From Acidobacteriota bacterium (GTDB lineage: Bacteria > Acidobacteriota > Blastocatellia > Pyrinomonadales > Pyrinomonadaceae), in NCBI GenBank assembly GCA_018269005.1, contig JAFDVK010000012.1, positions 248,001 through 312,000 on the forward strand: a stretch of 64,000 bases of DNA, written 5' to 3'. Under the pieces are notes generated by a model that saw nothing but the letters and a program-made list of their open reading frames with translations, did no database searches and was not told where the DNA came from. The translations under genes and the position numbers were made by a program. This document shows, in pieces, positions 32,162 through 36,519 of this stretch (the stretch's first letter is position 1; each line of letters starts with the position of its first letter).

Positions 32162-32249
32162 AGAAATCAGAGCGAATTAAGCTTAGCGCAACATTCGGAC
32201 GCCGCTCAGACCAAAAACCAAGCGGAAGGCTCTTCGAGATCTGGCGGAA

Positions 32250-32633
32250 TCATCCGTGGAAGTCCGTCCGTCGATGACGCGAAACGGTGATCAATGCGCT
32301 AGAGCTTTTTTCGCTTTCATCTTTCCGCACGAACTCACCCGCGTGCGTACGCAGATACTCAAAGAAGCGTTCAAATTCCCGCTGCATCTCGTCCATCTTC
32401 GACCGCATATTAAGAATGATCTCGACTCCCGCGAGGTTCACGCCGAGATCGCGGGTGAGAGATAGGATGACTTCAAGCTGTTCCAGATCGGAATCCGAGT
32501 AGAGGCGCGTATTGCCGTCTGAACGCGACGGCTTCAAAAGCCCCTCGCGTTCATACAGCCTTAGCGTCTGCGGATGTATCTCATACTGCTCCGCGACCGC
32601 ACTGATCGTATATGTCTTTACGCGCTTCTTCAT
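32250..32633 (-). CDS. hspR: MerR-family heat-shock repressor HspR
   Basis: 127 residues. The winged-helix MerR domain begins TYTISAVAEQYEIHPQTLRLYEREGL and continues RSDGNTRLYSDSDLEQLEVI; a short coiled coil (MRSKMDEMQREFERFFEYL) follows. This is the HspR layout, in which the repressor of dnaK-operon genes uses DnaK as corepressor. It lies at the end of the dnaK-dnaJ locus as in Actinobacteria and Deinococcus, which supports the call, though here a four-helix-bundle gene intervenes. The C-terminal tail is short and basic. Confidence 0.9.
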   Translation of the reverse strand: MKKRVKTYTISAVAEQYEIHPQTLRLYEREGLLKPSRSDGNTRLYSDSDLEQLEVILSLTRDLGVNLAGVEIILNMRSKMDEMQREFERFFEYLRTHAGEFVRKDESEKSSSALITVSRHRRTDFHG

Positions 32634-32641
32634 ACCAAAAT

Positions 32642-32676
32642 GAGTTGCAGAGTTGCAGAGTTTCGGAGTGCCGGAG
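32642..32676. repeat. Left 8-bp tandem array, inverted relative to the right array
   Basis: Units TTGCAGAG (twice exact), then TTTCGGAG and TGCCGGAG, decaying to unique sequence. The 21-bp stretch at 32643-32663 is the exact reverse complement of 33077-33097 on the other side of the four-helix-bundle gene. It lies 9 bp upstream of the hspR start codon. Confidence 0.9.
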
Positions 32677-32689
32677 TTACGTCGATCGC

Positions 32690-33061
32690 TTAGCTTCGCT
32701 CCTCGCGTAGATATCGTGACAACGCCAAGGTCATTCGGGATATTTCCGTTAGAGAACCGTATAACTCTTCAAAAACCGATTCCTCAATATACTTTAGTCC
32801 CTTGGCGATATGGAGATGTGATTGAACCTCTGCCGCAGACCCTCGCGCTAAATTAAGGAAATTCGCAAACTCGGAGTTCGTCCTTCTACCGTGACCTTCA
32901 GCAATGTTTGCCATCACGGAAACCGACGCACGGCGAATTTGGTCTCTAAGCCCAAAATCTTTCGAAAAATTTCCGGCAGACGTTGCCCTATAGACACTTA
33001 GGGTTACATCGTAGGCTTTTTGCCATGCCTTTATTTCTTCAAAACTATTGAACTTGGCCAT
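32690..33061 (-). CDS. Four-helix-bundle protein (23S rRNA intervening-sequence/S23 family)
   Basis: 123 residues covering the whole family: KAWQKAYDVTLSVYRAT, LRDQIRRASVSVMANIAEGHGR (near residue 40) and FANFLNLARGSAAEVQSHLHIAKGL-like helices. These proteins were first found encoded in intervening sequences of 23S rRNA and are related to the accessory Avd protein of diversity-generating retroelements; most stand-alone copies have no known role. This copy interrupts the dnaJ-hspR gene order and is bracketed by inverted 8-bp tandem arrays, so it looks like a recently inserted cassette. Confidence 0.92.
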   Translation of the reverse strand: MAKFNSFEEIKAWQKAYDVTLSVYRATSAGNFSKDFGLRDQIRRASVSVMANIAEGHGRRTNSEFANFLNLARGSAAEVQSHLHIAKGLKYIEESVFEELYGSLTEISRMTLALSRYLREERS

Positions 33062-33077
33062 TCGACTCTTCTTCCAA

Positions 33078-33182
33078 AACTCTGCAACTCTGCAACTACT
33101 CTAACTCTGTAACTCTGTAACTCTGTAACTCTGTAACTCTGTAACTCTGTAACTTCTGTAACTTCTGTAACTTCTGTAACTC
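33078..33182. repeat. Right 8/9-bp tandem array between dnaJ and the four-helix-bundle gene
   Basis: From the gene outward: two CTCTGCAA units (33080-33095), a degenerate stretch, six exact CTCTGTAA units (33105-33152) and three exact 9-bp CTTCTGTAA units (33153-33179), ending 3 bp before the dnaJ stop codon. The exact units point to recent slippage or duplication. The 21 bp at 33077-33097 match the left array in inverted orientation. Confidence 0.95.
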
Positions 33183-34346
33183 TCATTCCAGCCCGATCGT
33201 CTTCCTTGGATTCTCCGGATTCGCCTTCTCGAACTGCCGTAATATATCTTTCGTCTCTTCCGAGATGACCCTCGGGAGCGTTATCTTTACCTCAATGAAC
33301 TGATCGCCGCGAAGTTTCGGGTTGCGAAGGCTCGGGAATCCGCGTTCACGCAGCCTGAATTTCTGGCCCGACTCAGTTCCCGGCGGGATCTTCAGCGACG
33401 CCTTGCCTTCGGCGGTCGGCACTTCGATGCGCGTTCCGAGAGCTGCCTCCGGTACCGTGATCGGAACCGTCACATAGATGTTCTCACCCTTGCGGTCAAG
33501 GAATTTGTGCTTGCCGACATTCGTCACGATAAAAAGATCGCCCGGTTCAGCACCTAGCCGCCCGCCATGGCCCTTTTTCGGCACGCGGACGCGCGAACCT
33601 GTATCGACACCCGCCGGGATCTTCACTTTTACCTGTTCGCTCTTCGGCGTCGTTCCTTTGCCATGGCAGAGCGAACAAGGCTCGCGACGACGCCCCGTGC
33701 CTTCGCAATCAGGGCAAGCTTGTGAGAATTGCAGCCGGCCGCCGGTACGCATCACTTGGCCCGCACCCTTGCACGTTGGGCAAGTGACGACGGGACCGCC
33801 TGTATCGCCAGCACCCTGGCAACGCGAACATTGCTCGGAGCGGTTTACCGTAATGTTCGTCGTAAGGCCGGTAAAAGCCTCGTCAAAACTCAGCGCGAGC
33901 GGTATCTCGATATCGCGTCCGCGCTTGGGGACGGCACGCGGAGGCTCCGGCTGCGCTCTCGACGGACCGCCGCCGAATAGATCTGAGAAGATATCGCGAA
34001 AGCTGCCAGACCCGCTGCTCGTTCCGCCGCCGGAGAAATCAAATCCTGAGAAATCGAATCCGCCCGCTGGAGCTCCCTGGCTCGCCCCACCTGCCGTCGC
34101 GAACGGCGAGTCGGGATCGAGATTGTCCGCATAGTAGCCAAAGCGGTCAAAGACCTTTCGCTTCTTCGCGTCCGATAGGACGTCGTTGGCTTCCTGAATG
34201 TCCTTGAACTTGTCCTCGGCAGACTTGTCGTTCGGATTCACGTCCGGGTGATATTTGCGCGCCAAGCGGCGATACGCCTTCTTGATCTCGTCAGCGCTCG
34301 CGCTCTTTTTAACCCCTAGTATTTGGTAATAATCCTTTTTCGCCAT
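33183..34346 (-). CDS. dnaJ: Chaperone protein DnaJ
   Basis: 387 residues with all type I DnaJ domains. The J domain has [10 protein letters not shown] (HPD near residue 33). A Gly/Phe-rich linker spans about 85-130 ([14 protein letters not shown]). Four zinc repeats follow: [32 protein letters not shown]. The C-terminal beta domains follow ([26 protein letters not shown]). It delivers clients to DnaK and stimulates its ATPase. A terminator separates it from dnaK, so it may be transcribed from read-through or its own promoter. Its stop abuts the tandem array. Confidence 0.97.
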
Positions 34347-34479: not shown

Positions 34480-36423
34480 TTAGTTCTTGTTCTCGTCTTC
34501 GACATCGACGTATTCCGCGTCGATGACATCGCCTTCATCTGAGCCGGTAGCGGAACTGCCATCACCCGAAGCCGATGCGGACGATGCCTGTTCGCCGGAG
34601 GCAGCGTCGTCACCGCCCGCCGCACCTTGCTGACTGTAAAGAACCTCAGCGAGCTTGTGCGACGAAGTTTGCAGTTTCTCGAACGCATTGTTCATCGCGT
34701 CCACATCATCGCCTGAAAGTGCCGTCTTTGCCTCAGCGATCGCAGATTCGATATCAGACGCCGCCGAAGCATCGAGCTTGTCCTTGTTCTCGCCGAGCGT
34801 TTTCTCGACGCTGTAAACGAGTCCATCGAGGCGATTGCGTGCTTCGATAGAAGCCTTCTTCTTCTCGTCCTCTGCGGAGTGTGATTCGGCATCCTTCATC
34901 ATCTTGTCGATCTCTTCCTTCGAGAGGCCGGACGACGCAGTGATCGTGATCTTTTGCTCACGGCCTGTGCCGATGTCCTTTGCGGAAACATTCACGATAC
35001 CGTTCGCGTCAATATCGAAGGTGACTTCGACCTGCGGTACGCCACGCGGTGCCGGCGGAATACCGACAAGGTGGAATTTACCCAGCGTCTTGTTGTCCGA
35101 CGCCATCGGCCTTTCGCCCTGAAGAACGTGAACTTCGACCGAAGTCTGGTTGTCCGAGGCCGTAGAGAAGACCTCTGATTTTCGCGTCGGGATCGTCGTA
35201 TTCTTCTGGATCATCGGTGTCGCAACGCCGCCGAGGGTCTCGATGCCGAGCGAAAGCGGCGTAACGTCGAGAAGCAGAATGTCAGTCTTCTCGCCGCCAA
35301 GCACACCGGCCTGAACCGCGGCGCCAAGGGCCACAACTTCATCCGGGTTCACCGATTTGTTCGAATCCTTGCCGAAGTATTCCTTGACCATCTCCTGGAC
35401 CTTCGGAATACGCGTCGAACCGCCGACGAGAACGACCTCTTGAATGTCTTTTGCGGAAAGCCCCGCGTCCTTGATCGCCTGTTCAACGGGCGGCATAAGC
35501 TTCTTAAGAACCGGCTCTGCCAACGCCTCGAACTTCGCACGTGTGAGCTTCATCACGAGATGCTTCGGACCGCTTGCATCGGCAGTGATGAACGGAAGGT
35601 TGATCTCCGTCTCCATTGCAGACGATAGTTCGACCTTCGCCTTCTCAGCCGCCTCTTTAAGACGCTGAAGGGCCATCTTGTCATTATGGAGGTCGATTCC
35701 TTGATCCTTCTTGAATTCGTCGATGATCCAGCCGACGAGCACTTCGTCAACGTCGTCACCGCCAAGGTGCGTGTCGCCATTCGTCGATTTGACCTCAACG
35801 ACGCCTTCGCCGACCTCGAGGATCGAGATGTCGAACGTACCACCGCCAAAGTCGAACACGGCGATCGTCTCGTCCTTCTTCTTATCAAGTCCGTAGGCCA
35901 ACGCCGCGGCCGTCGGCTCGTTGACAATACGCAGGACCTCAAGGCCCGCGATCTTGCCCGCGTCCTTGGTGGCCTGACGCTGCGCGTCGTTAAAATACGC
36001 TGGAACCGTGATGACGGCCTGTTCGACCTTCGATCCAAGATAGTCTTCCGCCGACTGCTTCAATTTCTGCAGAATCATCGCTGCGACTTCCGGCGGGCTG
36101 TACTGCTTGCCCTCGGCCGTGATGCGAACGTCGCCGTTGCCGGCCTTTTCGACCTTATAGGGAACCTGCTTGATCTCGTCCGAAACCTCGTCGAACTTGC
36201 GGCCCATAAAACGCTTGATCGAATAAAGCGTATTCTCAGGGTTCGTAACTGCCTGCCGCTTCGCGACCTGGCCGACAAGACGGTTGCCGTCCTTTGTAAA
36301 TGCGACGACAGAAGGTGTTGTACGCCCGCCTTCGCTGTTAGTGATAACGACGGGTTCGCCGCCCTCCATGACCGCAACGACCGAGTTCGTCGTTCCAAGG
36401 TCAATACCGATTATTTTGCCCAT
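34480..36423 (-). CDS. dnaK: Molecular chaperone DnaK (Hsp70)
   Basis: 647 residues. The ATPase domain starts [18 protein letters not shown] and has [29 protein letters not shown] and [12 protein letters not shown]. The linker [16 protein letters not shown] leads to the substrate domain, and an acidic Ser/Ala/Gly-rich tail ends [12 protein letters not shown] longer frame to 36519 would place 32 unrelated residues before the highly conserved start; the ATG at 36423 has GGGAGA upstream. It refolds proteins with DnaJ and GrpE and, with HspR, feeds back on heat-shock expression. grpE is not in the locus. Confidence 0.98.
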
Positions 36424-36490
36424 ATTCTTTATCTCCCAACAATATAAGTGCCTGCTCGCTAAGAAAACTCTATAACTTGAGCATTTATAG

Positions 36491-36519
36491 ATGATAAAGG
36501 TTGAGTGTGTTGTTGTCAA
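36491..36519 (-). promoter_or_regulatory. Sigma-70-type promoter for dnaK
   Basis: Minus strand TTGACA (36514-36519, perfect -35), 17-bp spacer, TATCAT (36491-36496, five of six). Transcription would start about 60 nt upstream of the dnaK ATG. Two CTTGAG-like half-sites (plus strand 36476-36482 and 36500-36506) overlap the start and spacer; they resemble half of the HspR HAIR element but lie as direct, not inverted, repeats. Confidence 0.75.

Follow-up and report, generated by a model that had tools for sequence, protein, structure and literature searches.

Why does a small gene flanked by inverted tandem repeats fill the space between dnaJ and hspR, and does it move together with those repeats? 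The gene belongs to the S23, or 23S rRNA intervening-sequence protein (IVP), family and lies in a window of 64,000 nt (positions 248,001 to 312,000 of contig JAFDVK010000012.1, assembly GCA_018269005.1) from an Acidobacteriota bacterium of the family Pyrinomonadaceae. We consider it likely that the gene and its repeats are one copy of a large class of free-standing mobile cassettes that resemble rRNA intervening sequences (IVSs), have arrays as termini and lack a transposase of their own. The parts of the element, in window coordinates, are as follows.

32642..33182, no strand: complete element of 541 bp (array - S23 gene - array), taking up the space between dnaJ and hspR
32690..33061, minus strand: gene of the S23/23S rRNA IVP family (PF05635, TIGR02436), 123 aa, four-helix bundle, cargo of the element
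32642..32663, no strand: downstream (hspR-side) terminal array, TTGCAGAG x2; the short arm is this array plus degenerate copies up to 32677
33073..33097, no strand: inner part of the upstream (dnaJ-side) arm, CTCTGCAA x2; 25 nt at 96%, including the exact inverted complement of 32643-32663
33098..33182, no strand: outer part of the upstream arm, ACTCTAA, CTCTGTAA x6 and CTTCTGTAA x3; ends 3 bp from the dnaJ stop

The product of the gene passed the curated cut-offs of both PF05635 (E 1e-36, 125.8 bits against 33.8) and TIGR02436, "four helix bundle protein" (E 2e-35, 121.1 bits against 24). Tandem Repeats Finder reported GAGTTGCA x2.6 at 32642-32662 and AACTCTGT x12.8 at 33078-33183, the latter with the highest score in the window (155), and the repeat unit of this copy is 8-9 nt long. 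The 21 bp at 32643-32663 are the exact reverse complement of 33077-33097, within arms of 25 bp at 96%. An inverted flank match this strong round a 370-bp core was found at 7 of 1000 random places in the same genome (0.7%) and at 0 of 30 hspR flanks. S23 is the sole gene of the element, and no transposase lies between the inverted ends as it would in an insertion sequence (IS). No match to a known RNA family of Rfam was found in 32200-33400. An earlier note, made from the letters of this DNA, had described the S23 gene between inverted 8-bp arrays and the lack of a transposase, and its coordinates, 21-bp match and unit counts were all reproduced.

Inverted arrays around PF05635 genes

The upstream flank of each S23 gene was compared with the reverse complement of its own downstream flank, and the flanks of other S23 genes served as the control. 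Genes for all comparisons were selected by protein alone, and composition was controlled through the mismatched gene pairs. At 40 loci from the window's own genome and its relatives, the median self score was 42, whereas other pairs averaged 19. The cleaner test was a protein-only search with one genome per species, which gave 73 usable loci; 59 of them scored above threshold where 1.25 were expected by chance, and they came from more than 20 phyla (proteobacteria, Bacteroidota, Chloroflexota, cyanobacteria, planctomycetes, Omnitrophota, Elusimicrobia, archaea and others in the set). Inverted-complement flanks were present in 120 of 170 distinct PF05635 genes and in 1.4% of mismatched pairs, in a set that includes orthologous loci and many draft genomes and is not fully independent. 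The remote possibility that the gene is unrelated to the arrays, these being of a kind that slippage commonly produces in intergenic DNA, can appeal to gene-less arrays in the same genome, but it was rejected on the mismatched-pair control, with an association about 50-fold over mismatched pairs across phyla and arms that are inverted, not direct, every gene matching its own.

The ends share further properties. The best repeat period was 7 in 117 of 158 genes, followed by 9 and 8, and the 5' arm, as read inward from either end, was G-rich in 105 of 114 (P 7e-22), with AGT occurring at least twice in 64 of 120 arms and ACT in 4. As the structure is an inverted repeat, this polarity of the arm is independent of gene direction and is a property of the ends. 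In an independent clade, a gammaproteobacterial family with GGGAATC arrays, 17 of 22 S23 genes had inverted arms, several being bracketed by GGGAATC itself; at one locus of this family (L367, family of G438), S23 lies between accB-like and accC-like genes with GGGAATC arrays on both sides. Even where sites are not orthologous, similarity between units could be predicted from that between the proteins (Mantel r 0.29, 0/999). Judged by sequence, the repeat unit is shown to vary between families yet to travel with the gene.

The genome of the window (3.55 Mb) carries 11 PF05635 genes, most of them flanked by inverted arrays of their own unit (GAAGCCA, GTTCAAG, TTGATGG, AAAGGAT, GATTTTGG, ATAAGKG, GCGGAAC and others). 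In a 464-kb sample of it, partly picked around known elements, six inverted pairs had repeated arms and a loop of 300-500 bp, and all six contained S23; about 14 further array pairs had loops of 0-155 bp and no gene. Arrays this strong were absent from mono-nucleotide shuffles of the 464 kb. The CTCTGYAA array of the window recurs without a gene at about 10 other intergenic places of the genome, several times as close inverted pairs, and no transposase-bearing parent with such array ends was seen among these sites, which were found by pattern. Gene-less array pairs with matching units outnumber the gene-bearing ones.

The earlier note had named other flanked copies and a clean empty site in close relatives as what would support a cassette, and both are present (the latter described below). 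It had also held that arrays at random intergenic places without the gene would refute it. Such arrays do occur, yet they are often inverted pairs with small loops and matching units, and they are best read as gene-less derivatives of the cassettes.

Three other repeat families were observed in the same genome. The loops of gene-less CTCTGYAA pairs (L014, L026, L029, L039; contig C3) contain a repeated palindrome, GCCCGCACGNNGTAAGGGC, that resembles repetitive extragenic palindromes (REPs). A gene for a Y1 transposase like the REP-associated tyrosine transposases (RAYTs), at C3:712146-712756 (L118), is flanked by GTGGGTGCAACCCAC palindromes of its own. A dispersed 9-bp array family, TGCACGATT, occurs at C3:38566, 110504, 183318, 213547, 458760 and 744525, mostly without an inverted partner.

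Presence, absence and placement of the cassettes

In a second genome (G056), two S23 copies (L149 and L153), each at a site unrelated to the other, share 447 bp at 96% identity; the identity stops inside the arrays at both ends, and the flanks are unrelated. Conversely, the places occupied at L003, L008 and L009 are empty in the orthologous junctions of G013, G017 and G022, and these empty sites contain no array pair. As far as sequence can tell, comparison of such sites shows that what one relative has and another lacks, and what is copied to new sites, is array-gene-array as one unit, and the earlier idea of a small mobile cassette is thereby supported.

Junctions may also hold different elements in different genomes. 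At lspA-lgt (L002), one relative holds a different S23 with a different unit. At ybaB-recR (L011), the genome of the window has an S23 cassette of another unit where two relatives have gene-less inverted arrays (the names ybaB, recR, lspA and lgt are a reading of the flanking protein ends and not of a family search):

L281:9338-9497, G017: gene-less inverted GTGAATGGT array at ybaB-recR
L285:14024-14166, G013: gene-less inverted GTGAATGGT array at ybaB-recR

The dnaJ-hspR junction itself contains an S23 gene in 9 of 30 genomes examined, that of the window included. G010 has a gene-less array pair of the junction unit, G009 has a pair of another unit, several genomes have other inverted elements, and in several the gap is 0-16 bp. 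The junction S23 genes form one tree group (support 79/84); therefore, the insertion is probably old and has been lost repeatedly, and the window's gene looks like one old, vertically inherited insertion rather than a recent jump. The nearest relatives of this group (L092, L145, L155) carry AGTTGCAG-like arms at other sites. Among the dnaJ-hspR orthologues, the flavour of the unit was common to both arms more often than by chance (P 0.008), which suggests that the two arms evolve together; alignment scores gave no clear sign of strong covariation between them. Two side observations concern the same junction. In G013 (L044), the S23 gene is frameshifted and its arrays are kept, and it groups with G002, not with the near-identical host relative from which the window comes, hinting at a replacement at one and the same site. 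In G011 and G014, the junction contains a gene-less version of the AACCACAGAGRACACAGAG array element typical of PDDEXK_3 genes (see below).

On the coding strand the order is dnaK, dnaJ, upstream array, S23, downstream array, hspR, with the following genes outside the element:

32250..32633, minus strand: hspR (MerR/HspR), flanking gene
33183..34346, minus strand: dnaJ, flanking gene
34480..36519, minus strand: dnaK, neighbouring gene

The right array reaches to within 3 bp of the dnaJ stop codon (33183-33185, minus strand), and the left array starts 8-9 bp from the hspR start codon (32631-32633). Members of the class sit in operons: S23 is co-directed with its neighbours in 118 cases and opposed in 9, and the upstream arm begins a median of 1 nt past the stop codon of the upstream gene. 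Such placement fits a passenger of operons that apparently has no promoter of its own. Selection alone may account for it, given the shortness of operon spacers and the stop codons that many units include.

Two further observations concern the reach of the cassettes. The pair L216/L229 (89% identical) was set aside as a case of cross-phylum transfer, the flanks being syntenic, the pair orthologous and one label probably wrong. No match indicated carriage of an S23 cassette by a phage; 36 plasmid records were found, and arrays were seen in a Nostoc plasmid copy.

The S23 protein and the source of movement

The AlphaFold model of the window's S23 (mean predicted local distance difference test score 82) is a four-helix bundle. 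Its best matches in PDB are the S23 structures 2gsc and 2rld (E about 1e-5), and the match to the Avd chains of diversity-generating retroelements (DGRs; 4dwl, 8ub7) is weaker, with template modelling scores of 0.6-0.74. The family has the conserved core motif QxRRAxxSxxxNxAEG. The protein is under strong purifying selection (median dN/dS, the ratio of nonsynonymous to synonymous substitution rates, 0.076; 0.07 between the two G056 copies), as expected if it is important to the element or the host.

The cassettes are about 0.4-0.65 kb long, with a G-rich short-tandem array reading inward from each end and one S23/IVP gene between. The mechanism that we propose runs as follows. Both arrays would act jointly as a long stem, in RNA or in extruded DNA, in place of fixed terminal inverted repeats; the earlier note had likewise suggested that the ends could fold as a large hairpin or be recognised in trans. 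S23, a pentamer-forming, Avd-like four-helix bundle, would bind the arms or the stem of its own family and help to mobilise or stabilise the element, and the strand-breaking enzyme would come in trans from another source. Gene-less pairs would be derivatives comparable to miniature inverted-repeat transposable elements (MITEs), and the elements as a whole would be free-living relatives of the 23S rRNA IVSs, which are likewise stem-loops with an S23 gene in the loop. A wider generalisation is tentative and, in our estimate, less likely than not: that S23/IVP proteins across Bacteria and Archaea are mobility factors encoded by transposable elements whose ends are evolving short-tandem arrays, recognised through their structure, a long stem whose 5' arm is G-rich, rather than through a fixed sequence, that most orphan prokaryotic heptamer arrays are their non-autonomous remains, and that rRNA IVSs are members that landed in rRNA helices.

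Several observations weigh against these proposals. About 30% of the PF05635 genes are under the inverted-flank threshold, and the divergent L005, L006 and L010 have one arm or none. The RNA fold of the window copy is moderately better than that of shuffles (z -2.7). No clear target-site duplication was found at L003, L008, L009, L149 or L153, where the spacers of relatives are too diverged, no common target sequence was found, and no transposition was seen directly. S23 has no recognisable catalytic site; strand breakage must therefore be supplied by another factor or work in a way not known so far. The median dN/dS is based on seven pairs with unsaturated dS. S23 is also not the sole cargo: GxxExxY/PDDEXK_3 (PF13366) genes at 20 loci of this genome and its relatives (L121-L140) are bracketed by inverted arrays, mostly of the fairly constant unit AACCACAGAGRACACAGAG, and thus at least two cargo genes use the architecture. 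Finally, G041 (97% complete) has no detectable PF05635, yet it carries two perfect inverted AGTGCTG arrays:

L382:5166-5266, G041: perfect inverted AGTGCTG array
L383:2821-3091, G041: perfect inverted AGTGCTG array (one of the two loops holds nested palindromes)

A resident S23 is thus not needed to keep such arrays, and perhaps not to spread them. S23 copy number as the only driver of array density was set aside: array scans found several in the S23-free G041 but none in the S23-free G047 and G059 (120 kb), the near-free G022 (180 kb) and the S23-rich G019 (60 kb), samples that are too small, and the only matches in G043 (100 kb) were runs of N.

The most probable alternative, although we give it well under an even chance, is that a transposase of the host or of an IS, for example a RAYT-like Y1/HUH enzyme, acts in trans to mobilise cassettes that are not autonomous, S23 being a passenger that protects or silences the stem. 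Enzymes of this kind act on hairpins. Copy numbers of PF05635 and Y1_Tnp correlate within the genus (rho 0.60; 0.50 with genome size removed), and G041, with 10 Y1 genes, has its inverted arrays and no S23. The correlation with PDDEXK_3 is even better (0.73, the best found), and that with Y1 may reflect only mobile-element load. A Y1 gene of the window's own genome has REP-like repeats of its own, and the drafts of Salinivenus (7 S23), Brevundimonas (3) and one further genome (1) gave no Y1_Tnp match. A Y1/RAYT enzyme as the single mobiliser was accordingly set aside, the link being a correlation and Y1 being missing from some S23 genomes. Carriage by an IS has a concrete case in Calothrix sp. 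PCC 7103 (G066; L333-L340), in which an ISL3-family IS of about 2.6 kb carries S23; its inverted ends match perfectly over 94 bp, with a GGCAGAR array among them, and it is present in five near-identical copies and one internally deleted copy, several with 8-bp duplications. These copies were not used as evidence on the movement of bare cassettes, as their exact boundaries belong to the IS.

That the arrays came first, as independent hairpin elements whose loops S23 repeatedly invades, with the gene as what moves and the stem as its target, is improbable. Such an order would agree with the excess of gene-less over gene-bearing inverted arrays, with the gene-less pair of matching unit at the G010 junction, with the further nested palindromes that gene-less loops often hold, and with the position of IVSs in former tetraloops of 23S rRNA helices (PMC4990558). 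It is at odds with the L149/L153 arrays, which moved with the gene to sites without a common flank, with unit types that track protein relatedness, and with the empty sites at L003, L008 and L009, where no array pair stands ready.

Movement through RNA, with the transcribed stem-loop copied by a reverse transcriptase and S23 acting like the Avd of DGRs, is very unlikely. The fold match to Avd chains of the DGR ribonucleoprotein, the report of Avd-like PF05635 proteins near DGRs (PMC10053308) and the location of cassettes on the transcribed strand of operons would suit it. Against this, most genomes of the genus that are rich in S23 lack RVT_1, G019 (17 S23 copies) and G017 (14 copies) among them, and the copy number of RVT_1 does not follow that of PF05635 (rho -0.01); a reverse transcriptase as a general requirement was rejected on these grounds. 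The window's genome has one RVT_1, on another contig, and the surroundings of the window's S23 gene showed neither a reverse transcriptase nor a template or variable repeat. Taken together, these comparisons make a strong case for reading the element as a mobile cassette, in whose movement S23 may or may not take part.

Significance and relation to known systems

Through its link to inverted tandem arrays, PF05635, a common family annotated as "four helix bundle protein" without a function, gains a genomic context in more than 20 phyla, and small genes in operons such as dnaJ-hspR, ybaB-recR and lspA-lgt may be passengers. Published orphan heptamer repeats are explained as parts or remains of S23-type elements, and the rRNA IVS, formerly an oddity of rRNA, becomes one of the niches that a dispersed element occupies. 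Testable pairs of a protein and its repeat unit are on offer. Should the ends indeed be recognised by structure and not by fixed sequence, the design would be an unusual one for a transposon. No earlier paper linking S23 genes to arrays was found in a search that left out preprints and most subscription journals.

Among the known systems, the Avd protein of DGRs shares the four-helix-bundle fold (4dwl, 8ub7), but no reverse transcriptase stands beside the window gene and most host genomes lack RVT_1. MITEs, and REPs or bacterial interspersed mosaic elements with their RAYTs, are likewise small, intergenic, inverted, often gene-less and probably mobilised in trans. Their sequence is fixed and held in common with a transposase-bearing parent, whereas the ends of the present class differ between elements; Y1 genes are present (14 in the window's genome), yet the arrays form no fixed palindrome, and Y1 is missing from part of the genomes with S23. 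The TAACTGA repeats of Beggiatoaceae are also abundant intergenic heptamer arrays; they are almost all direct, with one indirect repeat reported and S23 unmentioned (PMC4679880), whereas the present arrays are inverted.

Closer are the heptamers of Rehm et al. (2015), GGGNATC in Xanthomonas and GGGGA(C/T)T in Nostoc, published as quadruplex-forming; that paper counts 70 inverted pairs for X. campestris, reports no general link to mobile elements and does not mention S23 genes (PMC4692102). Like the arrays described here, they have a period of 7, are G-rich, lie between aligned open reading frames near or overlapping stop codons, and often form inverted pairs; G-rich intergenic 7-nt repeats near stop codons are typical of the class, the window copy having a unit of 8-9 nt. 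Gene-less inverted arrays explain such published orphan repeats, for example GGGAATC of Xanthomonas. The closest relative is the 23S rRNA IVS of Leptospira, Coxiella and others, an S23 open reading frame in a stem-loop that was described as a selfish element (PMC4990558). It shares with the window element the protein family, the short S23 frame in a loop between complementary ends, and the patchy presence. IVSs lie inside rRNA genes (helix 9, 25 or 45) and are cut out of the RNA by RNase III, whereas the window element lies between dnaJ and hspR, and members of its class are found between protein genes, end in tandem arrays and occur in many copies per genome, with copies at new sites and empty sites both visible.
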